Shown in pieces: positions 3,745 through 25,567 of a stretch of 56,439 nt of DNA. Position 1 is the first letter of the stretch, and the number at the start of each line of letters is the position of its first letter. The notes under the pieces are model-generated. The model saw nothing but the letters and a program-made list of their open reading frames with translations, was not told the origin of the DNA and searched no databases. Made by a program: the position numbers and the translations under genes. The stretch lies in IMG/VR virus record IMGVR_UViG_3300015264_000006, positions 1-56,439 of that record. One strand, given 5' to 3'. The DNA comes from a virus.

Positions 3745-3933
3745 TCTTACTGCGGATGGTCGGGGAGACAGGGAGCGGCTTCCAGGCTGCCGCCGCCCGC
3801 CGGGCACTGCCGCCGAAGCGGGGACCCCGGACATCCCATCCCTGAGCGTCTCCCCTGGCGGGAATCCTGCGCCCCCGGCCTGACGGACGCCCGCTCCCCT
3901 GGAGCAGCCGCTACCCGACGACGCGGGGGCTAG

Positions 3934-4009
3934 TGGCGCGGACCGGATTTGAACCGGTGGTCTCTGGCTTATGAGGCCAGCGAGGACAGCCGAGCTCCTC
4001 TACCGCGCT
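3934..4009 (-). tRNA. tRNA-Met (CAU)
   Basis: The leftward strand folds as a full cloverleaf: acceptor AGCGCGG/CCGCGCC, D-stem GAGG/CCTC, anticodon stem CTGGC/GCCAG with loop CTCATAA (anticodon CAU), and T-stem ACCGG/CCGGT with TTCAAAT. The discriminator is A and CCA is not encoded. The first acceptor pair is an A:C mismatch. The anticodon stem lacks the GGG/CCC of initiators, so it is elongator Met, or Ile-CAU if modified. Confidence 0.9.
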
Positions 4010-6900: not shown

Positions 6901-7209
6901 TCAGGCGCTCCCTGCGGGCGGCGCAGCATCCTGCTCGACGCGCTCCGGCCAGTGCCAGGTGCCGCCATTGTGCGCTTGCTCGTCCTGCGGGACGCCCTGG
7001 TTGAAGAACATCCCTGTCGGGTTGAGCACGCACAGGTCGGCGAGCTGAGCATCGCCCGGCCCGAGGTCATCGATCCCGTCGCCGTGAACGGGATACTCCA
7101 GCATCTCGCCCAGGCCAGTCACCACGGCCGCGCGGCATTTGCTGCCGTACTCTCCGCCGGGCGTGCCGTAGCTGACGTAGTGGACGATCCGTCCGACGCT
7201 CGGCTTCAT
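6901..7209 (-). CDS. Conserved phage hypothetical protein
   Basis: 102 residues. The strand-rich N-terminus, PSVGRIVHYVSYGTPGGEYG followed by KCRAAVVTG, matches a small beta-barrel family that is common in actinophage and tail regions; a late segment GGTWHWPERV ends the domain. Function unknown. The ATG overlaps the stop of the upstream holin-like gene. Confidence 0.7.
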   Translation of the reverse strand: MKPSVGRIVHYVSYGTPGGEYGSKCRAAVVTGLGEMLEYPVHGDGIDDLGPGDAQLADLCVLNPTGMFFNQGVPQDEQAHNGGTWHWPERVEQDAAPPAGSA

Positions 7210-7439
7210 GCGGGCCTCTCTGTGCTGCTTGCAGGAACCGCCGGCGGGACCGCCGGCGGCTTGTCGCGGGTCAGCCAGCCCGCCGCGAACGTCAGCACCG
7301 CAGGGACCGCCGCGTACACCTCGGCTGTCTCCGCCGCGTCCAGGGCGCCGTGCACGACGTAGCGGCCCAGCAGCCACACGACGACGCCTGACACCGCGGC
7401 GGCGGCGGTGCTGGCCTGGACCTTCCGGCGGACGGGCAT
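7206..7439 (-). CDS. Holin-like two-segment membrane protein
   Basis: 77 residues from ATG 7439, chosen because AGGAGG sits 4 bases before it. Basic N-terminus (MPVRRKVQAS), then AAAAVSGVVVWLLGRYVVHG and AAVPAVLTFAAGWLT as two membrane segments, then a proline-rich tail. This matches the small r1t-type holins of actinophages. A weaker upstream ATG at 7460 would add seven residues. Confidence 0.7.
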   Translation of the reverse strand: MPVRRKVQASTAAAAVSGVVVWLLGRYVVHGALDAAETAEVYAAVPAVLTFAAGWLTRDKPPAVPPAVPASSTERPA

Positions 7440-7456
7440 GATGCCTCCTGTGGCGG

Positions 7457-7699
7457 TCATGGCAGCGGCTGGACTGGCGCGTCGACCCGGATGGCCTGCA
7501 CCCGTGACAGCGGCGCCGCGTACAGCGCCCCGCCGGGGTCGGTGAACCGGAGCCACGGGCCGCCCTGCGGCGTCTCGGACAGGCCCGTCGCCGGGTCGGC
7601 GAACGACGGGTCCCGGTCCATGGCCGCCGACCCGGCCGCCATCTCATGCCAGCCGTCGGCCAGCAGCACCGCGTTCACCTCCGTGATCACGTACTCCAC
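7457..7699 (-). CDS. Hypothetical protein
   Basis: 80 residues from GTG 7699. It starts EYVITEVNAVLLADGWHEM and has GPWLRFTDPGGALYAAPLSRVQAIRV, a probable small beta sheet. It lies between the holin-like gene and the rightward island at 7732. No family recognised. Confidence 0.55.
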   Translation of the reverse strand: MEYVITEVNAVLLADGWHEMAAGSAAMDRDPSFADPATGLSETPQGGPWLRFTDPGGALYAAPLSRVQAIRVDAPVQPLP

Positions 7700-10240: not shown

Positions 10241-11128
10241 CTAGGCCAGCCGCGCCGGGCTGAAGGTCAGCACGGCGCCGGACCCGGCGCCGCTGGTCGG
10301 GTGGTAGCGGATGAAGTTCGTCACGCCTGGCTGCAGCGCCCACCACGACGTGTGCGCGAAGTCGAGCAGGCCCAGCTGCGACTGGGCCGGGTCGGACAGC
10401 AGGTTCGCCGTGCGCCCGGAGGAGATCTCCACGTACTGCCCGGCCGCCAGGACCAGCGAGTCGAGGAAGGCGATGTCCAGCCCGGCGGTGTCGTTGGCCA
10501 GCTTCGGTCCCACGCAGGGGCCGTACAGCTTCGCTTTCCACGGCGGCGGCGCCGACCCCGCCACGGTCACGAGCGACGGCGACAGCCCCGACGACGCGGT
10601 GAGATGGACGCCCGTCACCGGCACGGAGTGCAGCCCGCTCCCCGCGGCCAGGTGCAGGCCCCCCGTCGGCGCCAGCAGCGCAGCCAGGTCGTACTCGACC
10701 GGGGCCGCGTCCTGCCACACCCCCGACGGGACTTTCCACGAGATGGCCACGTCGGTGCTGACCGGGTTGTCCACAGGCGCGGTCTTGCTGTCGAACCGCA
10801 GGGTCAGCGTCCGCGGGCTGGCCCACTGGTCGTTCGTCACGGTCAGCACCGGGCGGCGGAACGGCGCCAGCAGCGGCATGATCTCGTCGATGAAGTCCTC
10901 CGCAGTGAACCCCGCCGCCGAGGTGAACAGCCGCAGCGTCAGCGTCAGCGCCGCCGCCGCCAGGAACTCGCTGACGTCGTTCTCCCCGTCGCCGCCCGGC
11001 ACCGGGTCCGACTGCGCCCGCACCCCCGGCTGCACGTCCAGCGTCATCACCGACACGCCGTCACGGGGCTGGATGATGCTGGAGAGCCCGCTTACGGGAT
11101 CCGCAAGCGTCATGCTCGTGTAGGTCAC
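10241..11128 (-). CDS. Distal tail (Dit-like) protein
   Basis: 295 residues, directly after the tape measure with ATGA overlap. It starts TYTSMTLADPVSGLSSIIQP and has the region LRLFTSAAGFTAEDFIDEIM-LLAPFRRPVLTVTNDQW, which fits a tail-tip ring protein with an added galectin-like beta domain. The position in the tail module is the main support for the assignment. Confidence 0.7.
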   Translation of the reverse strand: MTYTSMTLADPVSGLSSIIQPRDGVSVMTLDVQPGVRAQSDPVPGGDGENDVSEFLAAAALTLTLRLFTSAAGFTAEDFIDEIMPLLAPFRRPVLTVTNDQWASPRTLTLRFDSKTAPVDNPVSTDVAISWKVPSGVWQDAAPVEYDLAALLAPTGGLHLAAGSGLHSVPVTGVHLTASSGLSPSLVTVAGSAPPPWKAKLYGPCVGPKLANDTAGLDIAFLDSLVLAAGQYVEISSGRTANLLSDPAQSQLGLLDFAHTSWWALQPGVTNFIRYHPTSGAGSGAVLTFSPARLA

Positions 11129-14100
11129 CCGAAGCCGGCCCGGGTCACCGTGAACGACAATTGCTGCGCCAGGATTGTTACATCAGCGACCTCGCGCGGA
11201 TTGAAGTTCTCGATGTGCACCAGCGGGCCGGGCCGCTGCGCCGGCGGGGGCGTGCTGGTCGTGCCGCTGAACCGCTCATAGCCGCTCTCCGCGAACGTGT
11301 ACGCCTGCCCCGACGCCCCGTACCCGAGCACCGGCTCGGTGAGGACCCCGCCCGACGCGAAGCCCTTCGGGCGGCGGCCCTTCGGCACCCGGAACCACCG
11401 CGCCGCCTCCTCGCCGAGGGTCTTGCCGAGGTCCCGGAACAGGTGCTCCAGGCCCGCCCGGTCCCCCTGCAGCTGCTGCAGGAAGTGGCGGCCCGGCTGG
11501 TACTTGCCCTCGAACACGCTGCTGGCCGCGCCCCGGGAGATGTTCAGCTCCGCCTGGCCGATCGCGGACTCCTCACGGTTCAGCGCCCGGATCAGCCTCG
11601 GGCCGCCGGACAGCAGCTCCTGCCCGTACGCCACGCCCGCGACCGGGTCGGACTGGCCGATCGCGACTACCTGCCGGATCAGTGACGCGTCAGCGTGCGC
11701 CGCTGACAGCTTCCCCAGGACCTGCCCGAACTTCTTGAGGCTGGACAGCCGCTGGCCCAGCTGGCCCTGCAGCGACGCCCCCGCCGACAGCGTCCGCGAG
11801 CCCACCATCGACCCGCCGAGCGTGGTGGTGGACAGGTCCGCGTATCCCGACAGGCCCTGCTGCACCGACTGCTGGTAGGAGCGCGCTGAGGCCAGGCGGC
11901 TGCCCAGCGTGCTGAGCTGGTTGCGGACGTCGATGAGGCGGCCCGTCTGCCGCTCCACGGCCTTGTCCCGCCACTTCGCGCTGGTGCCCTCGAAGTACTT
12001 CGCGATGTCGCGGAGGTAGCGGGTCTCCTCCGACCGGATCCCCGCGGCCGTGCCCGGCGAGGCGTAGTAGTTCACCAGGGACAGGCCCGCGGTCTGCTCT
12101 TTCCGGAGGTTCCGCGCGGCCAGGGCCGCCGCCTGCTTCGGCGTCAGCGTCCCGGCCGCCAGGCCCGGCCGGCCGCCCATCCCGGCCTGCACCGACTGGG
12201 AGTGCGAGAGGACCGGTTCCCCGCCGCGCATGTAGGCCAGCTCCGGGCCGCGCTCGCCGAGCACCGTCCACCCTGGCGTCGCCACGCCGCCGCTGGCCAT
12301 GTACTTGAGGTAGGCGCCGTTGTTGAACGTCGTCCACGGGCTGAACCCGCCCGCGCCCCGGTACTTCGCCACGGCCGCGCGGGCGTTGGCCGGACCCGTG
12401 AGCAGCTGCGCGTCGATGCCCGCCTGCGGCTCGGAGTTGCCCGGGGTGATCTGCCAAAGGCCCCACCCGGTCGTCGCGTACGGCTGGCCCTGCTGCACGG
12501 CCCGCACGTTGAACCCCGACTCCGGGCCGGTGATCGCCGCGGCCACGTGCGCGGTGCCGCCGCCCGGGCCGCCCGCCTGGATCCACCAGTTCTCGATCTG
12601 CCGCAGGCTGGCGCGCCCCAGGCCGCCGCCGAACGTCTGCGCCGACGCGGTGGCCTGCGCCTTGCGCATCCCGGCCAGCGTCGCCATCGCCGTCGCCGAC
12701 TCGACCGCGCGGAGGGTGGCCGCGTTCTCCCTGCCGATCCACGACCCGAGCCCGGCCAGCGACCCGGGACCGTAGGAGCCGACGACGCCGCCCTGCGCGA
12801 AGCCGGGTATCTTCCCCCGCAGGTGATCGACCGCGCCCGAGCTGACGATCGGGGTGGGCACGACCAGCTCACCGGGCATCGCCATGATCGGCACCGAGTC
12901 ACGGCCCGGGACGCCACCGCGGATCAGCCCGCCCGCCGCCAGTGACGTCTGCTTGCCACCCGGGCCCGTCCTCAGGCTCGTGACGCTGAAATGGCCCTTG
13001 CCGTCGACCGTGATGCTCACATGCTCGGACTTGACGGGCAGCGTGTCCTTCAGCTTCTGGATCTCCAGCCGCAGCGCCTTGTTGTGCCCGGCTGCCTTCT
13101 CCAGCCCTGGCAGGGCGTTGTTGATCACCCTGTTGTAATCGCTGGTCTTGCCCGTGGCGGCCTGCGCGTCCGTGGCGGCCAGCGTGACCTGGCTGATGTA
13201 GGTGTCGAACGCGCCTCTGGCATCGCGCTGCTTCTGGGTCAGCAGCCCGGTGTTGCCACCCGACGCCTTGAGCGCCTTCGCCAGCGCCACCTGGTCGTCT
13301 TTCAGGGTGATGAGGTCCTGGTCGGCGGCGACGGCCGGGTCGAAGAACAGCTTCAGCGCGTTGGTCAGCGCCGTGGTCCGGGTCGCCGCCGTCAGCGTCT
13401 TGTTCGCGAAGTCCTGCATGTCCTGCGCTAGCTGCGTCGTGGGCCGCTGCGCCGCCAGGTTCGAGTTCGCGTACGCCTCGGCCTGGGTGACGGCATCCCT
13501 CATCGACTGGCCGCCCTTATCAACCTGGCTGGCCAGCACCCCCGACTTCCTGGCGAGCGAGACCGCTGACTGCTGGGTCAGCCCGTATTTGTCCTGCAGG
13601 ATCCCCAGGAACGTGGTCTGGTTCCGGTAGGCGGTCAGATTCTCCTGGACCGCAGCGGTATTTGTCTGCGTCGCGCCGGTCAGGTCCCCGACGCTGGTCG
13701 TCCCGGTCACCATGCCGGTGTGCACGTTGCGCAGGGTGACCTGCTGCTTCTCCTGCTGGGCGTTCGCCGCCGCAATGGCCTTCGCGGCCGCGAAATAGCC
13801 CGCCGTGTTGAACCCCTGCGCGTTCGTCTGCTTCTCTATCGAGGTCACCTGGCGGTCGGTGGCCGTCTTCACCTTCGAGGCCCAGAACGCCAGCGCGCCG
13901 AGCCCGGCGACAGCAGCCGCTACCCAGAAGAACGGGTTGACTTCATCCAGCGCGGTCATCGCCGCGGCCAGGACTCCCGTCTCAGCCGCCGTCGCGACCT
14001 CCGCGCCGCCCAGCGCCGCCGTCGCCACCGCTGCGGCGTCAGCTTCCACGGCTGTTGCCGCCATGGCCGCCTTCGCCGCGGTCAGTGCGCCGGCGAGCCC

Positions 14101-15021
14101 CGACAGCCTCAGCAGCGGCATCAGCACGCCGAGCTTCGCCAGGGCCAGCGCCAGGCCGCCGACGCCCAGCGCCGCGCCCTCCAGCGGCCCCGGCAGCACC
14201 GAGATCACCTTGTCGAGAGCCTGCAGCCCCGCGGTCAGCAGCCTCAGCTCGAACAGGCCCGTGCCGCCCGCCGCCTGCGCCAGCGTCAGCACCGAGTGCA
14301 CCAGCGTCGTCACGTCGGTGCCTAGCAGCCCGATGGCCTGCGGCGCGACCGTGGACGCCCAGCCGATGAACTTCTGCAGCCCCGCGTCGTTCTCGAACTG
14401 CACCAGGAACCGCTCGACGCCCGCACCCGAGGCGGCCGCGAGCTTCCCCAGCGGCCCCAGCAGGCTGTTAGCCGTGGACAGCGCCGTGTTGAACACCTGG
14501 AAGGTGCGGGGCTGCAGGCTCGCCGACAGCGCGTCGTACCGGGTTTTCAGCGCCTCGACCCCGGCGGCGGCCGTTTTCTGCCGGGCGTTCAGCGACGCCC
14601 ACCCGGCGGTCAGGCCACCGGGGCCGCTCATCGCCTTCACCACCGGAGCCAGCGACCCTGCCGCGAGCAGCCCGAATGCGCTGAACGCCAGGCCCCCGGC
14701 CGCGAGCGGCCCCGTCAGCGGAGCGCCCAGCCCGATCGCCGCCGCGATCCACGACCCGCCGCCGCCCTTGGACCCCAGGCCCTTCTTCGTCCCGTCCGCG
14801 ATCCCGGCACCCAGAGCCTTGCCCGCCGCGTCGCCCTGCGCTTTCAGCTCGCCGCGCAGCACCGCCATCTGCCGCAGCGCGGCGGACTTCTCGATGGCCG
14901 GCTTGATGGTGGGGTTCAGCTTCCCCAGCGCCACCGCCTCGTTCATGATGGCGTCCAGCTCGGCCTGGGCCTTCGCCGTCTCTGCGAATAGCTTGAGGTT
15001 GACAGTCCTGGTCAGAGCCAT
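11125..15021 (-). CDS. Tape measure protein with embedded transglycosylase domain
   Basis: 1298 residues, the longest gene here. An alanine-rich helical N-terminus (KAQAELDAIMNEAVALGKLN), hydrophobic membrane-active stretches near residues 95-125 and 270-380, and long helices set the tail length. Around residues 800-880, HVAAAITGPESGFNVRAV, GWGLWQITPGNS and NNGAYLKYM form an SLT/lysozyme-like fold, with the catalytic Glu in GPESGF. This would cut peptidoglycan during DNA entry. The C-terminus carries more helices and ends in the typical tail-tip contact region. Confidence 0.9.
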   Translation of the reverse strand: MALTRTVNLKLFAETAKAQAELDAIMNEAVALGKLNPTIKPAIEKSAALRQMAVLRGELKAQGDAAGKALGAGIADGTKKGLGSKGGGGSWIAAAIGLGAPLTGPLAAGGLAFSAFGLLAAGSLAPVVKAMSGPGGLTAGWASLNARQKTAAAGVEALKTRYDALSASLQPRTFQVFNTALSTANSLLGPLGKLAAASGAGVERFLVQFENDAGLQKFIGWASTVAPQAIGLLGTDVTTLVHSVLTLAQAAGGTGLFELRLLTAGLQALDKVISVLPGPLEGAALGVGGLALALAKLGVLMPLLRLSGLAGALTAAKAAMAATAVEADAAAVATAALGGAEVATAAETGVLAAAMTALDEVNPFFWVAAAVAGLGALAFWASKVKTATDRQVTSIEKQTNAQGFNTAGYFAAAKAIAAANAQQEKQQVTLRNVHTGMVTGTTSVGDLTGATQTNTAAVQENLTAYRNQTTFLGILQDKYGLTQQSAVSLARKSGVLASQVDKGGQSMRDAVTQAEAYANSNLAAQRPTTQLAQDMQDFANKTLTAATRTTALTNALKLFFDPAVAADQDLITLKDDQVALAKALKASGGNTGLLTQKQRDARGAFDTYISQVTLAATDAQAATGKTSDYNRVINNALPGLEKAAGHNKALRLEIQKLKDTLPVKSEHVSITVDGKGHFSVTSLRTGPGGKQTSLAAGGLIRGGVPGRDSVPIMAMPGELVVPTPIVSSGAVDHLRGKIPGFAQGGVVGSYGPGSLAGLGSWIGRENAATLRAVESATAMATLAGMRKAQATASAQTFGGGLGRASLRQIENWWIQAGGPGGGTAHVAAAITGPESGFNVRAVQQGQPYATTGWGLWQITPGNSEPQAGIDAQLLTGPANARAAVAKYRGAGGFSPWTTFNNGAYLKYMASGGVATPGWTVLGERGPELAYMRGGEPVLSHSQSVQAGMGGRPGLAAGTLTPKQAAALAARNLRKEQTAGLSLVNYYASPGTAAGIRSEETRYLRDIAKYFEGTSAKWRDKAVERQTGRLIDVRNQLSTLGSRLASARSYQQSVQQGLSGYADLSTTTLGGSMVGSRTLSAGASLQGQLGQRLSSLKKFGQVLGKLSAAHADASLIRQVVAIGQSDPVAGVAYGQELLSGGPRLIRALNREESAIGQAELNISRGAASSVFEGKYQPGRHFLQQLQGDRAGLEHLFRDLGKTLGEEAARWFRVPKGRRPKGFASGGVLTEPVLGYGASGQAYTFAESGYERFSGTTSTPPPAQRPGPLVHIENFNPREVADVTILAQQLSFTVTRAGFG

Positions 15022-15022
15022 G

Positions 15023-15180
15023 TCAGCCTCCCTGCGCGCCGGGCCGAGTCTTGCGGATGTACTTGATTAGGTAGTCGAATTCTGCGACGCGGAGTCCGTA
15101 GATGTCGGCGGGCTTGTAGCCGAAGACCTGGGCGAAGGCTCCGAGGTACTCCCAGACGGCGGCCCTGATCCGGGGGCCCC
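15023..15180 (-). CDS. Tail assembly chaperone, -1 frameshift extension
   Basis: In the -1 frame relative to the chaperone, an open segment reads IRAAVWEYLGAFAQVFGYK, then EFDYLIKYIRK, and stops at 15023-15025, two bases from the tape measure start. WEYLGAFxQVFGY...EFDxL is the conserved second part of actinophage tail chaperones. The shift probably takes place in the GGGGCCCCC tract (15172-15180). This gives a long G-T type product beside the short G product. Confidence 0.75.
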
Positions 15181-15525
15181 GGTAGGGTCCGCCGCGGCCT
15201 TCGCCGCCTCGGCCTCAGCCTCGGCCTTCGCCGCCTCGGCGGCGGCCCGCGCTTCCGCGATCACCGCCAGGCGCGCCTCCAGCCACGCCGCCGACAGCCT
15301 GACGACCGGGAAGTCCACGCTGGCGATCGGCACGTCAGGGCTGCCGCCGTGGAAGACCAGCCACCCCAGCGCCTGGATGCAGACAGTCCGGCCCGCCCCT
15401 AGGCCATCGTCGAAGTCCGCGAGATTGCCCTTGATGTGCTCCTCGACGGCGATGCCCTGCAGGACGGTCAGGTCCTCATCGTCGTAGGACCAGGACTTGC
15501 CGTCGTACTCGCACTTGATGATCAT
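15067..15525 (-). CDS. Tail assembly chaperone, unshifted product
   Basis: 152 residues. The N-terminal domain KCEYDGKSWSYDDEDLTVLQ, then EEHIKGNLADFDDGL and TVCIQALGWLVFHGG matches the first tail chaperone of actinophages, with an alanine/glutamate helix next. After the slip site the zero frame becomes serine/proline-rich and ends SASQNSTT, as expected for a non-selected readout of the overlapping frame. Confidence 0.8.
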   Translation of the reverse strand: MIIKCEYDGKSWSYDDEDLTVLQGIAVEEHIKGNLADFDDGLGAGRTVCIQALGWLVFHGGSPDVPIASVDFPVVRLSAAWLEARLAVIAEARAAAEAAKAEAEAEAAKAAADPTGAPGSGPPSGSTSEPSPRSSATSPPTSTDSASQNSTT

Positions 15526-15534
15526 TCGGGGCTC

Positions 15535-15966
15535 CTACCTGAATCCGTGAGCCTTGGCCCACCCGGTGATAGCGGCGTTACCCCACGCGTCGGCGGCCTT
15601 CGTCGCGGCCCGGTCAGCCGCCGCGGACAGGAAGGGGCGCGGAACCTGTTTTCGCCATGTCCAGTCCCTCCGGGACTGGTCCGGGCGGCCGAACACGGGG
15701 TGGCTGACCCACTGGCCGCCCGGCGCCTCGAACGTGAACGCCATCGGCGCCTCAGCGCCCCCGGCGGTGATCTCCGCTGACTTGCCGTCAGCGGCGACCG
15801 TGACCCTGATGGAGCGGGGGATGCGCTCCGACCAGGCACCCGCGATCGCACGCGCCTCGGCCGCGATGATCTCGGCCGCCTCCCGCATCGGCTTGCCGCC
15901 CGCGCCGAGCGACCCGACAGTGACGCCCTGCCCGGCCGGGAGGCGGTGAGAGGCCAGGCTGGGCAT
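15535..15966 (-). CDS. HK97 gp10-like head-tail protein
   Basis: 143 residues. The helix REAAEIIAAEARAIAGAWSE followed by strands IRVTVAADGKSAEITA, and the C-terminal RPFLSAAADRAATKAADAWG, resemble gp10-type tail completion proteins. It lies between the tail tube gene and the chaperones. The assignment rests on fold pattern and position. Confidence 0.6.
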   Translation of the reverse strand: MPSLASHRLPAGQGVTVGSLGAGGKPMREAAEIIAAEARAIAGAWSERIPRSIRVTVAADGKSAEITAGGAEAPMAFTFEAPGGQWVSHPVFGRPDQSRRDWTWRKQVPRPFLSAAADRAATKAADAWGNAAITGWAKAHGFR

Positions 15967-15987
15967 GGTGTCTCCTAGGTTGACAGG

Positions 15988-16004
15988 TGGTATACCATCT
16001 GGAC
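15988..16004 (+). promoter_or_regulatory. Extended -10 promoter of island 2
   Basis: TGGTATACC gives an extended -10 (TATACC 15991-15996) ending 8 bases before the ATG at 16005. GGTATACC is also a perfect 8-bp palindrome that could be an operator. A TTGACA at 15980 is too close (5 bases) to serve as -35. The message is probably leaderless. Confidence 0.55.
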
Positions 16005-16448
16005 ATGGGACGCATCTTAGGAACCATCGCCGCCGCCGCCCTGCTCATCGCGCTCGCCGCCTGCGGCGCTCCTGCCGCTAAAGCGGACCCGGTAGCGGCC
16101 GTGAAGGCCCGCGAATGCGCCGTCTACGCCAGGGTCCGCGACCAGATCCGCAGCGCTACGGCTCACGGCACGGAGGTTTTCGAGCTCATGTCAGCCATGA
16201 CAGCGCAGGGAACGCCACCCTGGGGCAGCGAGCTCAGCCGGGCCGCGAAATATGCTGACGTCCCGTCCGTCCCCCTCGGCGGCAACCCCGCGCGCGAGGT
16301 GGCCGCGGCGCTCAGCAACCTGGCGCTGCAGATCGATGACCTCGACCTGGACGCCACCGCCAGCAACCTCTCCGGCGTCCCGAACATCCCCAGCGACTGG
16401 AACCGGATCCTGGACGCCCAGGCCACGGTGGCTGCCGCCTGTGGCTGA
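16005..16448 (+). CDS. Predicted lipoprotein, island 2
   Basis: 147 residues. MGRILGTIAAAALLIALAAC is a signal peptide ending in a lipobox (LAAC), with lipidated Cys20 followed by GAPAAKAD. The mature domain is helical, with cysteines near its start and end. Phage lipoproteins made in lysogens often block superinfection at the envelope; that role is inferred. First gene of a three-gene rightward operon embedded in the tail module. Confidence 0.75.
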   Translation: MGRILGTIAAAALLIALAACGAPAAKADPVAAVKARECAVYARVRDQIRSATAHGTEVFELMSAMTAQGTPPWGSELSRAAKYADVPSVPLGGNPAREVAAALSNLALQIDDLDLDATASNLSGVPNIPSDWNRILDAQATVAAACG

Positions 16449-16620
16449 CCTGCACCGGCAGAAGCCGCTGTGCTTCCGGCCGTCCGGGGACGACCGCGCA
16501 TGGCTGGCAGAGTATGCCCGGCGCGCTGGCCGCTCCGTCTACGCAGTCCTCGCCGACGCCCTCGCCGAGTACCGGCACCGGCATACGGCGGAAGAAGCAG
16601 AGAAAAGGGAAAGATCATGA
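16441..16620 (+). CDS. Ribbon-helix-helix protein, island 2
   Basis: 59 residues from GTG 16441, overlapping the lipoprotein stop. QKPLCFRPS is the strand, DDRAWLAEYARRAG helix A and SVYAVLADALAEYRHRH helix B of an RHH fold. A charged tail ends RERS. It resembles the RHH protein at 4927. The stop overlaps the ATG of the next gene (ATGA). Confidence 0.7.
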   Translation: MADLHRQKPLCFRPSGDDRAWLAEYARRAGRSVYAVLADALAEYRHRHTAEEAEKRERS

Positions 16621-17402
16621 ACCGACGCACGTTATTCCTGATCGCCATGGCTGCCGTCATGATTGCCGCGTTCCTCGCGTTCCTCGCGATGTACCAGGGG
16701 CCTCCCGCTGGTGCCGCCACGCAAGCGCCGCCCCGGCACTGGCTGATCAGCAAGCCTGAACTCGCCCGTATCCGCGCCGCCGGGGCCACCGCAGGTTTCG
16801 GGTGGGTCATGTGCGACCCGGTTCCCCAGCGGTCACTGGGCTGCCCGGTACCCACGTTCACCAGCTACTACGCGTTCCGCCAGTGGGTCCTGGCCGGCGG
16901 CGCCGGCACAGCAGAGATCGACTACGAAGGGTCGGTCACCCCGCACTGGCAGATGACGCACCTGCTGTTCTACGTCCGCCTCACCGCCCAGCTCGGCCGC
17001 GCGCACGGCGTGTTCACCATCCTGTCCCCGATCACGTCGCGGGCGTCGGTGCCCACGTCGATGCTCGCGGTGGACGAGCAGGCCGCCCGGTACGGCGCGG
17101 GTGCGGTGGACATCCAGCTGCAGTGGATGGAGCAGCACCCGTGGCGGTACGCGGCCCTCCTGGCGTCCTGGGTGCCGCAGATCCGTCAGGCCGGGCCGGG
17201 CACGCTGGTTCTCGCCGGCCTGGCGACCGACCCGGAAGGCACCCCAGTGACCCCGTGGATTCTGACCCGCACGTACAGCCTGACCCGGGACATGGTGGAC
17301 GGGTACTGGCTGAACGTCCACCCGTGGCCCGGGCACCCCGGCTGCGCGCCGCAGGGCTGCCCGCAGGTAGCGGTCACGTTCCTGCGGAACATCGGCGCCT
17401 GA
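16617..17402 (+). CDS. Secreted protein of unknown function, island 2
   Basis: 261 residues. A basic start (MNRRTLFLIAMAAVMIAAFL) gives a signal peptide or anchor that ends near AGAATQ. The mature domain, with segments AGFGWVMCDPVPQR, GGAGTAEIDYEG, SPITSRASVPTSMLAVDEQA and VDGYWLNVHPWPGHPGC, looks like a TIM-barrel-like exported enzyme. Two cysteine pairs could form disulphides. No catalytic set is recognised. It would be exported from the lysogen. Confidence 0.7.
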   Translation: MNRRTLFLIAMAAVMIAAFLAFLAMYQGPPAGAATQAPPRHWLISKPELARIRAAGATAGFGWVMCDPVPQRSLGCPVPTFTSYYAFRQWVLAGGAGTAEIDYEGSVTPHWQMTHLLFYVRLTAQLGRAHGVFTILSPITSRASVPTSMLAVDEQAARYGAGAVDIQLQWMEQHPWRYAALLASWVPQIRQAGPGTLVLAGLATDPEGTPVTPWILTRTYSLTRDMVDGYWLNVHPWPGHPGCAPQGCPQVAVTFLRNIGA

Positions 17403-17425: not shown

Positions 17426-17911
17426 TCAGGCAGGAATGGTGATATTCTCGACGGGCGCCGACGTCGGGGTGAACTGAAGCTCGATGGTGGTCGGGTTGCC
17501 GCCGATCGAGCTGGACGGCGCCGACTGGAGCACCTTGATCGCGAACGCGTTCATTTTCCTGCCCGGGACGTCGCCGCCGGGCAGGACCAGCATGAACCCG
17601 GTGGTGTTGCGGGGCAGCAGCGTCCGGACGTCCGCGCTGGCCACGTCCGCGTACATGCTCAGCGTCGTCCCGTCCGCCGACAGCAGCCCGGGGATCGACG
17701 GGACGAACGTCGACGCCAGGTCCGGGGTCGGCACCGCCGCCCCGATCACGGCCCACGTCCCGTAGGAGGCGACCTGCGGGGACAGGTCAGTGCCCGCGTT
17801 GATCTCCGCCCGCGTCGGCGATGACAGGATCGCGATCGCGGGCAGGAAATTGAAGTGCCACGTGCCCTCCGGGATGTACCGGCTGGCCACGCTGATCGGG
17901 GTCGCTGGCAT
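17426..17911 (-). CDS. Major tail (tube) protein
   Basis: 161 residues. Starts ATPISVASRYIPEGTWHFNF and ends with a strand-rich domain (KMNAFAIKVLQSAPSS, TIELQFTPTSAPVENI). Size, beta content and position between the connector genes and the chaperones fit a tail tube subunit. The rightward island 2 separates it from the gp10-like gene. Confidence 0.75.
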   Translation of the reverse strand: MPATPISVASRYIPEGTWHFNFLPAIAILSSPTRAEINAGTDLSPQVASYGTWAVIGAAVPTPDLASTFVPSIPGLLSADGTTLSMYADVASADVRTLLPRNTTGFMLVLPGGDVPGRKMNAFAIKVLQSAPSSSIGGNPTTIELQFTPTSAPVENITIPA

Positions 17912-19003: not shown

Positions 19004-19824
19004 CAGGCGATCACCGGGCGCGGCGGCCCGCACCACTCCTTAGCCTTGGCCGGGACGGTGAAGAACTCGCCGGGCTGCCTGGACTGCTCCTCCGGGCCGA
19101 TAACGCCGGACTGCATGGTGCCCACGCCGCGCTGGGTCTCCCACAGGTGCTCGATCATGACCAGCGCGCCGCGCCGGTACCGGGACGGGACCTGCTGGTA
19201 CCCGGCGACGTAGGTGACGTCGACCAGGCCGGTGACGGGGGGTCCGGTCATGACCCTGATGATGCCGCCGGGGCTGACCCGCATCGTCGTGACGTCCCAG
19301 GTGATCGCGGCGTCCCACGAGACGACGGAGGTGAGGGAGATGACGGGCGGGTCCGCTGCGACGCTGAACTCCCGCACTTCGCCGTAGCCGCACAGGTCGA
19401 TCTCGTCGGTGATCACCCGCCGGACGATGGTCTCGTGCTTGTAGTCCTCGATCGCGCCCGTGGTGCCGGCGAGGAAGTCGAGCAGCTCGTCGTCGTAACT
19501 GTGGTTGGCCGGGTCGATGTTGAGCTGCTTCTTAGTGTCGGCCAGGGACACGATCGCGGGCCACGGGGTGGGGTCCACGTCCCACTCGTCGTCCCACGAG
19601 GTGACGGGCCCGGTGGTGACGGCGTGGGCGGTGTACCGGCCGGGAATCGTGGTCTGGTAGGAGAGGCGGTACTGGCCGGGGACGGCCGCGTCGGTGATCG
19701 CCGGGGTGGCCGTGGTCGCGTCGGGCAGGGTGACGGTCAGGGTGGCCGTGGCCGCGTGGGCCAGGGCGCCCGTGGCGTCCAGGACGTCGAACGCGATGGG
19801 GTACATGCCGCCTGCGCTGATCAA
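19003..19824 (-). CDS. Head-tail connector with N-terminal Ig-like domain
   Basis: Residues 1-90 form an immunoglobulin-like beta domain (FDVLDATGALAHAATATLTV, GQYRLSYQTTIPGRYTAHAV). After it, SLADTKKQLNIDPANHSYDDELLDFLAGTTGAIEDYK is the helical core of gp6-type connectors. The start is TTG 19824, which overlaps the previous stop (TTGA), or ATG 19806. The connector joins the portal ring to the tail terminator. Confidence 0.75.
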   Translation of the reverse strand: MISAGGMYPIAFDVLDATGALAHAATATLTVTLPDATTATPAITDAAVPGQYRLSYQTTIPGRYTAHAVTTGPVTSWDDEWDVDPTPWPAIVSLADTKKQLNIDPANHSYDDELLDFLAGTTGAIEDYKHETIVRRVITDEIDLCGYGEVREFSVAADPPVISLTSVVSWDAAITWDVTTMRVSPGGIIRVMTGPPVTGLVDVTYVAGYQQVPSRYRRGALVMIEHLWETQRGVGTMQSGVIGPEEQSRQPGEFFTVPAKAKEWCGPPRPVIA

Positions 19825-20840
19825 CCGAACTGCCCTCCCTGCGCTCTCGGGATGGTCATGGTGCCCGCCACCGCGCGGGCGGCGGTCGTGCTGGCGTCTC
19901 CCGCGCGGGCGGCGGGAAGAGGCATGGCTGCGTGCCGCGCGGTCCCGTACAGCACCGGCGGCCCGGCGGCGGGCGGAGGGTTCCACCAGCAGCTGCGGCG
20001 CAGCCGGGCCGGCCAGCGCGGCCGGTGCCCCGCCTGCCGGATGAGCGGGGCGGTCAGCGGCCCGGGTGAGGTGCTCGCCGGGCGCGCCGCGGGAACCTGG
20101 AAGATGCACCCGCGGCGGGGCTGCGCGGCCCGCGAGACGGCCCGGCGGCGCAGCTGCGGCGGGATGCCGGGGGACGCGTGCGGGACGCCCCAGATGCAGC
20201 CCCGGCGCGGCAGCCGTGCCCTGGCCGGTGGCTGCCGCGGGAACTGGGCCGGAATCGCCGCCGGGGGCGGCGCGGCAGCGCCCTGCCACGGCGGCTCGGA
20301 GCGGTGGCCGCGGGGTATGCGGAGCGGCTGGGCGCGGCGCTGGCGCAGGTGCGGGGAAACCAGCGGCCCCGGCGCTCCGGGAGCCGCAGCCGCCGGGGGC
20401 AGCGGGAAGAACCGCCCGCGGGGGGGACGGGCGAGCCGGGACGCACGGCGCGCCGTTCCCGGCGGCACGGAAGCAGCCGCCGCGGGTACCGCGAACCCGG
20501 CGGCCGGCCTGCGCGGGGGAAGCCACCGGCGGCCGGCCTGCCGCATCTGCGGTAGCGCAAGTGCCGGGGACGGCGCGGCGGCCTGCGGGAAGAACTGGCC
20601 CCGGCGCGGGACGATGAGGCGCCGGCCGGGATGGCGGGCGACCCGGGCGACGAGCGGGCCCGGCGCCGGGGGCGGCGGCGGCTGCGGCAGCCCCCAGAGC
20701 CGGCCGCGGCGCGGGACGGCAAGCCGCCGGTCGGCCTGCTGGATGAACGCGGCGATCAGGCGGGCCTGCGCCGCGGCCGGGCGCGGGGGAACGCCCCAGA
20801 ACATGCCGCGGCGGGCCAGGAGGTTACGCCACCGCCTCAC
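19821..20840 (-). CDS. Arg/Pro-rich repeat protein
   Basis: 339 residues, strongly basic. Seven or so diverged repeats of 40-50 residues centre on [PR]RRG-x-[FWI]-[WF]-x-[VLP]-P: RRGMFWGVPP, PRRGRLWGLP, PRRGQFFPQA, PPRGRFFPLP, PRRGCIWGVP, PRRGCIFQVP. Each is preceded by a G-P-L-[VT] segment. Coding pressure is evident because these motifs persist in frame. Position in the head module suggests a virion protein, perhaps DNA-contacting; function unknown. Confidence 0.65.
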   Translation of the reverse strand: MRRWRNLLARRGMFWGVPPRPAAAQARLIAAFIQQADRRLAVPRRGRLWGLPQPPPPPAPGPLVARVARHPGRRLIVPRRGQFFPQAAAPSPALALPQMRQAGRRWLPPRRPAAGFAVPAAAASVPPGTARRASRLARPPRGRFFPLPPAAAAPGAPGPLVSPHLRQRRAQPLRIPRGHRSEPPWQGAAAPPPAAIPAQFPRQPPARARLPRRGCIWGVPHASPGIPPQLRRRAVSRAAQPRRGCIFQVPAARPASTSPGPLTAPLIRQAGHRPRWPARLRRSCWWNPPPAAGPPVLYGTARHAAMPLPAARAGDASTTAARAVAGTMTIPRAQGGQFG

Positions 20841-22659: not shown

Positions 22660-22687
22660 GGGCCGTCACCACCTCACGAGATCAGGG

Positions 22688-22703
22688 CGTATACGCTGTA
22701 AAC
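22688..22703 (+). promoter_or_regulatory. Leaderless promoter of island 3
   Basis: GCGTATACGC is a 10-bp palindrome that contains TATACG (22690-22695), 8 bases before the ATG at 22704. The spacing is the same as for island 2 (TATACC then 8 bases). No ribosome site is present. Confidence 0.5.
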
Positions 22704-22916
22704 ATGGAAGGAACTCCCGTCACAGTCCGGCTCGACGCCCCGACTCTCGCCACAGTCGATGAGCTTGCGGCTTCGGCCCGCAGGATCCCCGTGTTCGCCG
22801 CGATGCCCCCCGCCACGCGCTCTGACGTCATCAGGATGATGGTCACCGGATGGCTTCACGACCACCGCCGGGACGTGAGCGAGATGCTGGCCGGCCGCGA
22901 GCGGGGCACGTCATGA
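22704..22916 (+). CDS. Ribbon-helix-helix-like protein, island 3
   Basis: 70 residues. TPVTVRLDAPTLATVDELA gives strand plus helix A; after a loop longer than usual (ARRIPVFAAMPPA), TRSDVIRMMVTGWLHDHR gives helix B. The 10-residue loop insertion makes the RHH call less firm than in islands 1 and 2. Overlaps the downstream membrane-protein gene by ATGA. Confidence 0.6.
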   Translation: MEGTPVTVRLDAPTLATVDELAASARRIPVFAAMPPATRSDVIRMMVTGWLHDHRRDVSEMLAGRERGTS

Positions 22917-23251
22917 TCATCGTCGCGGCTGCCGTCATCGTTGTCGCCGCTTACCTGGTCACCGGCTTCCGCTTCGTCGCCCCGGCGTGGGTGACACGCC
23001 AGGTCGCCAGGAACATCAGCAGCTACCCGGAGCTGGCGCGGGACCCGCAGTACGTCGAGGAGTGGCGCCGCGATTTCGCCGGGCTGGGTATCGGCGTCGC
23101 CCTGATCTGGCCCGCGTTCCTGATGATGCGCTTCCTGGCCGGCGGTATCGCCGCCCGGTCGCCGCTGACCAGTCACGAGGCTGCGCAGAAAGCCAGCGCG
23201 CAGGACGCGCGCATAGCCGACCTGGAACGCCAGTTGGGCATCAGGCCGTGA
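22913..23251 (+). CDS. Membrane protein, island 3
   Basis: 112 residues. Hydrophobic segment 1 (IIVAAAVIVVAAYLVTGF) lies at the N-terminus and segment 2 (GLGIGVALIWPAFLMMRFLA) in the middle, with a charged domain between and a C-terminal helix (AQDARIADLERQLG). It ends two bases before the stop of the convergent late gene. A role at the lysogen membrane, such as exclusion, is possible but unsupported by homology. Confidence 0.65.
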   Translation: MIIVAAAVIVVAAYLVTGFRFVAPAWVTRQVARNISSYPELARDPQYVEEWRRDFAGLGIGVALIWPAFLMMRFLAGGIAARSPLTSHEAAQKASAQDARIADLERQLGIRP

Positions 23252-23585: not shown

Positions 23586-23645
23586 TTAGCCGGCCGCCAG
23601 GAAGGCGACGCTGCTGGTCCCCGCCGCGGCACTGGAGCTGGTCAC
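23586..23645 (-). CDS. Possible 19-residue peptide
   Basis: VTSSSAAAGTSSVAFLAAG. Its GTG overlaps the TGA of the glycosyltransferase gene (GTGA) and it fills most of an otherwise empty 80-base gap. The overlap is the only support, so this is tentative. Confidence 0.3.
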   Translation of the reverse strand: MTSSSAAAGTSSVAFLAAG

Positions 23646-25567
23646 CGCGGCCTGGCCAGCAGGTACTCGCCGGGCACCGGCACGTCCCGGATCCCGTCCG
23701 GCATCCACACCGTCTCCCCGGAGTACGCCACCTCCCACCCGTAGCCGAGCCTGGACAGCGCGGCCTCCAGGTCGGCGCGGTCGTAGTAGCCGTAGATGGA
23801 GTGGTCCTCGATGAGCAGCACCGGGCGCAGCCGCTCCAGCAGCCCGGCCATGCCCTCGATCGCGTGGATGTCGGCGCCTTCCACGTCGAGCTTCACCAGG
23901 TCGAGGCGGTCCAGGCCGGCGAGCTCAGGCTGCGCGTCGAGCCGCCCGGCGGCCACCAGGCCGCCAGTGCCTGCCTCCGCGGGCAGGACCCGCGTCGAGC
24001 CGCCCTCGGCCTGCCCGTTCGGGTCGGACAGGGCCAGTGCCGTCTGTTCATCCCACGCCGCCAGCTCCACCACCTCGACCACGGCGCCCAGGTCGTTCAT
24101 CGCGATGTGGCGGCGCAGCGTCTTAGCGGTCGCCGGGTTCGCCTCCACCGCGATCACCCGCGACGCCCTCGCGGCGAGGCGCAGCGACCAGTGACCCACG
24201 TGCGCGCCGACGTCCAGGAACACGCCGCCCTCGGGCAGCAGGCCCTCCAGCACCGGGGCCAGCCCGGCCTCGTGGTCACGCCAGCCGATCCCGTCGCCCG
24301 TGCCCGGGCCGCGGTCAATCCACAGCAGCCCGTCCGCCTCCCGCACCGTGGCGGGCCGCACCGGCCGCGGCCCGGACTTCGCCAGGTCCGCGCGCTTCGC
24401 CTCCAGCACGCCCCCGAACTTCGCCAGCACCGGCTTCCAGTACCGCTCCGTCACCACGTCCGCGTCGTAGTCCTGCGCGAACGCGTACGCCTCCGCCCGC
24501 ATCGACTCATCGCGGGCCTTCTCATACGCCTGCTCGTAGGCGTCCGCGATGTCACCTATCCGGGGGACAGCCGCCCACCCGCCCTGGCTGTCGTGCCACG
24601 TCCTCTCCCAGCCGACCTTCCACCCGGAGCCGCACAGCTCCGGCATCGCCGTCGCGTCCGTCACGATCACCGGGGTGCCGCACGCCTGCGCCTCCACGAT
24701 GGGGATGCCGAACCCCTCCCCGTAGGAGCAGTTCGACAGGACATCGGCGGCCCGGTGAACGTCAGCGACCGCGGACGGGTTCAGGCCCTTGCGGTAGGTG
24801 TAGATGTCGGTGTAGGTGTAGGAATCGCGCGGGAGCATGTGCTCCAGGAACGCCCGCAGCCGCATCCCCGACGGCTGGTCCACGTCGGTGTGCAGGACCA
24901 GCATCGCGTCGGAATGCCGCCTGCGGAGCTGCGCGAACGCGGCGACCTGCTCGGCGAACGCCTTCCGGTTGCCATCCCGCCCGACGTTGTTCGCGACCAT
25001 CGCCACCACGAACGCGTCCTCCGGCAGCCCCGCCGCGGCGCGGGCCGCGGCCTTGTCACCAGGGCAGAACACGCTGGTGTCAATGCCGTGCGGCACGTAC
25101 AGCGGGTTCAGGCCCGCACGCTGCAGCGCCGCCTCACCGAAGCGGGACATGGCGATCGGGATGGCGCCCATCACCCCGAACCAGCCCGCCACCACATCCG
25201 GGACGTCCAGGTGATCGACCGGCACCCACGAGCCGACGCACAGCTGGTCCAGCAGCGGCGACTCGAACGTCCACACGTCACCCAGGGTCAGGATGATTCC
25301 CCTGGCCGAGGCTTCCTCCATGCTGCGGCACTTCTCCGCGCCGAAGTGGTGCAGGGCGTGCGGGACGATCACGTCGGCGCCGTACGGCGCCGAGTAGGAC
25401 GGGTAGCAGGTCATCCCGTTCCAGTCCATCTGGGCACCCTGCAGGCCGTAGTAGACCGACAGGGCCACATCGTGGCCGAGGTCACGGATGCGGGGCGTCA
25501 TGATGCCGGTCTGCATTCCGTAACCGGTGGGCGCCCACGGCGCCACCGAATGGAACAAGATCTTCAA
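23642..25567 (-). CDS. Glycosyltransferase-FkbM methyltransferase fusion
   Basis: 641 residues. Residues 1-390 are a GT-B (GT4-like) glycosyltransferase: KILFHSVAPWAPTGYGMQ, VPHGIDTSVF, and the donor-binding NCSYGEGFGIPIVEAQACGT with its E-x7-E pair. Residues 430-640 are a SAM-dependent FkbM methyltransferase: FLDVGAHVGHWSLRLA (motif I), VIAVEANPATAKTLRRH and LVKLDVEGADIHAIEG. GGAGG precedes the ATG. It lies within the structural block, so it probably adds and O-methylates a sugar on a virion protein. Confidence 0.85.
   Translation of the reverse strand: MKILFHSVAPWAPTGYGMQTGIMTPRIRDLGHDVALSVYYGLQGAQMDWNGMTCYPSYSAPYGADVIVPHALHHFGAEKCRSMEEASARGIILTLGDVWTFESPLLDQLCVGSWVPVDHLDVPDVVAGWFGVMGAIPIAMSRFGEAALQRAGLNPLYVPHGIDTSVFCPGDKAAARAAAGLPEDAFVVAMVANNVGRDGNRKAFAEQVAAFAQLRRRHSDAMLVLHTDVDQPSGMRLRAFLEHMLPRDSYTYTDIYTYRKGLNPSAVADVHRAADVLSNCSYGEGFGIPIVEAQACGTPVIVTDATAMPELCGSGWKVGWERTWHDSQGGWAAVPRIGDIADAYEQAYEKARDESMRAEAYAFAQDYDADVVTERYWKPVLAKFGGVLEAKRADLAKSGPRPVRPATVREADGLLWIDRGPGTGDGIGWRDHEAGLAPVLEGLLPEGGVFLDVGAHVGHWSLRLAARASRVIAVEANPATAKTLRRHIAMNDLGAVVEVVELAAWDEQTALALSDPNGQAEGGSTRVLPAEAGTGGLVAAGRLDAQPELAGLDRLDLVKLDVEGADIHAIEGMAGLLERLRPVLLIEDHSIYGYYDRADLEAALSRLGYGWEVAYSGETVWMPDGIRDVPVPGEYLLARPR

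Follow-up and report, generated by a model that had tools for sequence, protein, structure and literature searches.

An antisense, lipoprotein-led cassette in the tail module of a temperate, probably actinobacterial phage as a candidate superinfection-exclusion or surface-alteration moron

To characterize an unusual island in the tail module of an uncultured virus, we analysed its entire IMG/VR record as a single window of 56,439 bases, which is possibly a fragment and has a GC content of approximately 71%. The window carries integrase (61-1065), terminase, portal, head, RecT and endolysin genes, which identify the virus as a temperate tailed phage, and its composition and relatives point to an actinobacterial host. 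The tail genes are transcribed leftwards. They include the major tail tube gene (17426-17911, minus strand; Pfam Phage_TTP_16, PF25595, 6.7e-22; phrog_2491, 2.3e-20), which forms the right border of the island, and to its left a gp10-like tail-completion gene (15535-15966, minus strand), assigned from weak HK97-gp10 and phrog_5 matches and with an 87% homologue in the related locus L002, a chaperone-like tail gene (15067-15525, minus strand) and the tape measure gene (11125-15021, minus strand). The last was assigned from its length, its position and a 26% match to the annotated tape measure protein of Streptomyces phage Ponzi; used as a query, it did not find viral relatives. Between the tail tube gene and the gp10-like gene lie three plus-strand genes, here called A (16005-16448, divergent from the gp10-like gene), B (16441-16620) and C (16617-17402). 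They are real open reading frames, with codon-position GC like that of the remaining genes, and they overlap by 8 nt (A/B) and by 4 nt in an ATGA (B/C). The original prediction of a coupled operon inside the tail module was therefore borne out. Elsewhere on the minus strand we observed a tRNA-Met gene (3933-4009) approximately 3 kb from the integrase gene, which could mark an attachment site or host DNA; an 80% GC stretch (about 19821-20840) encoding an imperfect PRRGxxxxxP-type repeat; and, in the head/tail region, a gene for a 641-residue protein (23642-25567) that by eye is an unusual cargo, one half glycosyltransferase-like and the other FkbM-like methyltransferase.

Protein A has 147 residues, is predicted to be all-helical and carries the lipobox MGRILGTIAAAALLIALAAC (LIALAAC). 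The LAAC motif with Cys20 is conserved in three phages (the window, L002 and L004), as expected if A is the lipoprotein that had been proposed. Two further conserved cysteines in the mature part, Cys38 and Cys146, may form a disulphide, which would fit a location outside the membrane. We found no family match for A in Pfam, PHROG, NCBIfam or a PDB profile search, no exclusion or defence family was matched, and PADLOC returned nothing. An AF2 model built from three sequences has five helices at a pLDDT of 62, and a Foldseek search with this low-confidence model was uninformative (best E 0.5). A chromosomal match to A in L057 looks like a substrate-binding protein and was taken as chance; the remaining chromosomal matches covered N-terminal residues only and were rejected.

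Protein B (59 residues, GTG start) was described from the outset as a ribbon-helix-helix (RHH) protein, and this part of the prediction stands only as a pattern: the strand-helix-helix arrangement is visible, but B matched no Pfam RHH family and no PDB entry, and its comparison with an RHH profile was not significant (hhalign probability 3.6%). The counterparts of B in the relatives L006 and L010 do match RHH profiles. An RHH fold is thus plausible by eye for B, and unproven.

Protein C has 261 residues and begins with MNRR followed by a 20-residue hydrophobic segment, consistent with the exported protein originally described, which may be cleaved or may remain anchored. The structure prediction suggested for it was informative for one part alone: AlphaFold from the single sequence gave an N-terminal helix (residues 3-26) with pLDDT above 90 over most of its length, but an overall pLDDT of 39, which is useless. 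C had no match in Pfam, PHROG, NCBIfam, PADLOC or PDB, and sequence searches of phages, plasmids, viral contigs and genome contigs were equally negative. Whole-genome searches alone yielded relatives, at 30-38% identity (E 2.5e-16 to 1.4e-9), in five genomes of one family (G592, G620, G622, G628 and G657), each with several copies, frequently with a lipobox. An alignment of nine of the family's sequences has 14 invariant columns and repeated strand-like motifs, and C carries the family motifs QxQ, AGL(A/S)(T/S)(N/D)PxG and GYWLN; on this sequence evidence, C belongs to a rare actinobacterial family of exported proteins that has no Pfam entry. Because C is closest to proteins of these genomes, the phage probably infects a member or a near relative of that genome family. 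From the sequence, we suspect that C is a TIM-barrel-like enzyme. In three genomes (L072, L075 and L078), a C-family gene directly follows an HlyD-type gene, itself divergent from a GT2 glycan-synthase gene. This locus of GT2, HlyD-type and C-family lipoprotein genes looks like an uncharacterized actinobacterial exopolysaccharide locus. Because relatives of C adjoin HlyD-type and GT2 genes in these genomes, a role at a surface glycan, which C would probably act on or bind, is our best guess for its function. A PDB profile search with the C family gave a best E of 0.58, and a beta-hexosaminidase match to the family (E 0.87) was rejected as evidence.

Searches with the tail tube protein showed that A and B recur together in two uncultured relatives, L002 and L004, and a viral contig scan with A returned the same two contigs only. 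Both carry the pair antisense within the corresponding tail region and retain the 8-nt overlap and the upstream palindrome; identities to A and B are 92% and 90% in L002 and 68% and 79% in L004. The dN/dS values of 0.25-0.65 point to purifying selection on both genes, although very few synonymous changes underlie the value for A against L002. Identity to L002 is 91% across the A-B-gp10 block but 79% from the tail tube gene onwards, and A has a dS of 0.07 where the tail tube has 0.42; the block was therefore probably exchanged recently. Homology to the relatives ends within the 3' end of B. C occupies the third position in the window, but none of L002, L003 and L004 has it; in its place L002 carries a convergent T5orf172-like gene and L004 an Endonuclease_7 gene. 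We conclude that A-B is a stable unit and C an add-on, so A and C need not act as a pair. Of the surface-exposed pair from a prophage that had been envisaged, the predicted envelope location of both proteins and the presence of an integrase stand, whereas the pairing is weakened by the absence of C from both relatives that have A-B. The view that the island is not tail machinery held up, and we reject a tail-protein reading. A related idea is that A or C is associated with the virion, for example as an exopolysaccharide-degrading decoration, and is antisense by chance. C may act on glycan and sits among tail genes, but the export signal, the lipobox, the opposite strand, the separate control region and the loss of C from relatives make this idea barely credible.

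The control region before A (15980-15998, plus strand) consists of TTGACAG followed by the palindrome TGGTATACCA (15988-15997). A -10-like TACCAT (15993-15998) lies mostly inside the palindrome and 6 nt before the ATG of A. The window, L002 and L004 all have TTGACAG-(A)-GTGGTATACCATC upstream of A, invariant save for one inserted base. A consensus scan found neither a sigma-70 promoter with a properly spaced -35 nor a terminator; TTGACA is just 7 nt from the -10-like box, too near to be its -35. A search of viral contigs for the pattern TTGACAG-GTGGTATACCA returned the two relatives and L054 only, and the L054 match was discarded as chance because no related gene lies downstream. GTATAC has only two occurrences in the window (15990 and 22689), each the core of a perfect 10-bp palindrome exactly 9 nt before a cassette ATG. 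The second site, within the palindrome GCGTATACGC, opens another plus-strand cassette (22687-23251) inside the leftward structural module. It comprises an RHH gene (22704-22916; Pfam RHH_1, 21.2 bits against a cut-off of 20.5), with the same 9-nt spacing from GTATAC to ATG as A, and a membrane protein gene that starts at 22913 in an ATGA overlap with the RHH gene. The two palindromes and their identical spacing indicate that the window holds two cassettes of one design. Because the palindrome TGGTATACCA is found with A-B only, it gives no ground for assuming that all the cassettes described below are controlled alike.

To place the island in context, we surveyed the gap between the tail tube and tape measure genes in loci drawn from genome contigs, from prophages in chromosomes and from two scans of viral sequences. 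Of 12 close relatives, counting the window itself (the window, L002-L010, L112 and L114, of which L008 and L009 are nearly identical), 10 have antisense cassettes that encode membrane or exported proteins, as do some distant phages. In the remaining two close relatives, the gap holds a sense-strand HNH-like gene only (L003) or nothing (L005). A typical cassette consists of a small DNA-binding regulator followed by a membrane protein gene, at times accompanied by an HNH or endonuclease VII gene; the regulators are RHH, Phd-like or PadR-like, although the Phd-like and PadR-like labels, and several RHH-like and HNH-like ones that fall below the Pfam cut-off, were read by eye rather than obtained as profile matches. 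L006 encodes an RHH protein (NikA-like/TacA1, above cut-off) and a membrane protein. L007, L008/9 and L112 have a related RHH-like gene and a membrane protein gene, with an HNH-like gene behind them in L008/9 and L112, and L114 combines a Phd-like gene with one for a relative of the L006 membrane protein. In L010 (2698-3026, minus strand), an RHH_1 gene above cut-off overlaps by 4 nt a gene whose product matches Pfam Imm_superinfect (PF14373) at 31.9 bits against a cut-off of 27.9. Among distant phages, L145 carries a different antisense lipoprotein of 173 residues (6962-7483, minus strand), with TATCGT 6 nt before its ATG, and L161, on the same contig as L042, encodes a PadR-like regulator (7442-7696) and a 46-residue membrane protein (7305-7445) on the minus strand with a 4-nt overlap. 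L160, L028, L030 and L148 have short membrane ORFs in the gap. Most of the approximately 50 distant intervals are without a cassette. The 4-nt overlap between regulator and membrane protein genes recurs in both window cassettes and in L006, L007, L010, L112, L114 and L042/L161.

The cassettes also share a start-site signature. In 10 of the 11 cassettes examined, TANNNT precedes the leading start codon by 6-8 nt, and most of these lack a Shine-Dalgarno motif; among all 2338 ATGs of these sequences, 17 (0.7%) have TANNNT at that distance. The motif was seen before it was counted, however, and homologous cassettes are not independent, so a binomial value is no clean test. As a partial hold-out, a search of antisense ATG and GTG starts for TANNNT picked the PadR-like gene of L042/L161 and only then led to the overlapping membrane protein gene; the same search also returned chance ORFs, and the starts in L030, L160, L148 and L028 are without the motif.

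Two alternative explanations bear on the composition of these cassettes. One is that they are addiction or toxin-antitoxin-like modules, in which an RHH or Phd-like antitoxin overlaps a small membrane toxin and serves prophage maintenance or abortive infection. The order of regulator and membrane protein, the ATGA overlap and the antitoxin-type regulators (TacA1/NikA-like above cut-off in L006, Phd-like in L114) all fit such modules. However, the first gene of the island encodes a lipoprotein rather than a regulator, one cassette partner is an Imm_superinfect protein, and models of known toxins matched none of the scanned partners, by which measure the cassettes do not qualify as type II toxin-antitoxin systems; we consider this explanation improbable. 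The other is that the slot is a homing endonuclease target and that A, B and C are passengers with no role for the phage. HNH, Endonuclease_7 or T5orf172-like genes do occur in the gap of L002, L004, L008/9 and L112, and HNH-like ORFs in that of L003 and L028, but the window, L006, L007, L010 and L114 have cassettes with no nuclease found in the gap, and A and B show purifying selection and have kept their own control element. Homing passengers are thus very unlikely, and rank below toxin-antitoxin-like modules.

Together, these data lead us to favour, as probable though far from certain, the interpretation of the island as a moron that is independently transcribed, self-regulated and expressed in the lysogen, most likely serving superinfection exclusion or surface alteration. 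The moron anatomy is well supported: the island is antisense to a uniform late operon; A-B and the control element are kept while the third gene is exchanged; and close relatives replace C (L002 and L004) or have no antisense cassette at all (L003 and L005). Placement antisense to lytic genes is characteristic of prophage accessory loci (PMC7067206). An own promoter is a possibility: the orientation and the leaderless -10 signature point to it, but the consensus scan found neither a -35/-10 pair nor a terminator. We propose that the island is cargo carried in a slot of the late tail operon where insertions recur, on the opposite strand and with its own promoter. Translation of A would start on a transcript with virtually no leader, and the overlapping start codons would then give B and C. 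B would most likely bind the promoter palindrome and hold the cassette at a low or tuned level in the lysogen, where we predict that it is expressed. A would be anchored outside the cytoplasmic membrane and C exported or anchored there, and jointly or singly they would alter the lysogen surface, most likely blocking the entry of competing phages. The strongest pointer to exclusion, which we infer, is the Imm_superinfect gene in the equivalent gap of L010. The leading alternative is lysogenic conversion without exclusion, in which the surface is altered for the benefit of the host, for example in its exopolysaccharide through C, and any effects on phages are incidental. The chromosomal neighbourhoods of C homologues, with their glycan synthase and HlyD-type genes, favour conversion, as does the failure of A and C to match any exclusion family; however, the short membrane proteins and the Imm_superinfect protein in the gap of other relatives suggest exclusion as the common theme, and we regard conversion alone as rather unlikely.

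Several known systems resemble the proposed exclusion moron in part. Ltp of Streptococcus thermophilus phage TP-J34 is a prophage-encoded, membrane-tethered exclusion lipoprotein with a moron-like character (PMC3952083). A shares with Ltp its nature as a prophage-encoded, exported lipoprotein with a lipobox, but Ltp lies in the lysogeny module (PMC3952083) and A in the tail operon; no sequence similarity between them was detected, and Pfam, PHROG, NCBIfam and PDB profile searches found no Ltp-type repeat domain in the sequence of A. The island also has B, whereas the accessible portion of the Ltp report describes no regulator-type partner (PMC3952083). Imm, the family of T4 Imm (PF14373), has a member in L010 coupled to an RHH gene, but neither A nor C belongs to this family. 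Cor of phages phi80 and N15 and gp15 of HK97 are tail-region morons. Their likeness to the island lies in exclusion cargo at the cell envelope, although the hosts are unrelated, and we know of no regulator-membrane protein pairing for either. Receptor inactivation by Cor and the title of a study on HK97 gp15 are listed in PMC11436027. Among actinophages, whose prophages express phage-excluding membrane proteins (near the repressor region in CarolAnn and its relatives; PMC6426606), the defence genes include Sbash gp30/31, CarolAnn gp43/44, Butters gp30/31 and a Charlie membrane protein (PMC6426606, PMC6426596, PMC7542560). Like the proposed island, each is a unit that the lysogen expresses and that includes a membrane protein; the one in Sbash has its own promoter. 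Those of CarolAnn and its relatives are near the repressor/integration centre (PMC6426606), whereas the island is inside the tail operon, and the accessible parts of these reports describe no layout of an RHH, Phd or PadR regulator joined through ATGA to a membrane protein (PMC6426606, PMC6426596, PMC7542560).

Morons and exclusion lipoproteins are thus known already; in the open-access literature, we found no description of a recurring regulator-ATGA-membrane protein cassette in the tail-tube to tape-measure gap. A broader reading, which we put forward tentatively and with less confidence than the moron itself, is that the island belongs to a class of exchangeable envelope modules in uncultured actinobacterial phages that amounts to an unrecognized reservoir of exclusion genes. 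Such modules would be leaderless and antisense in this gap and would consist of an interchangeable RHH, Phd-like or PadR-like regulator and a membrane protein, usually joined through ATGA, with lipoprotein-led variants; C would be a captured host exopolysaccharide-pathway protein that remodels the glycan coat of the lysogen. If true, searches of phages that infect soil actinobacteria for new genes of exclusion or surface conversion could target a single gap in the tail operon, where the cassettes would be recognizable from an antisense orientation, a -10 box 6-8 nt ahead of the start codon and the regulator-ATGA-membrane protein layout. An uncharacterized exported family, that of C, would be tied both to glycan-synthase neighbourhoods and to phages, and the cassettes would offer an inexpensive way to find out whether prophage cargo is controlled by a small repressor of its own.
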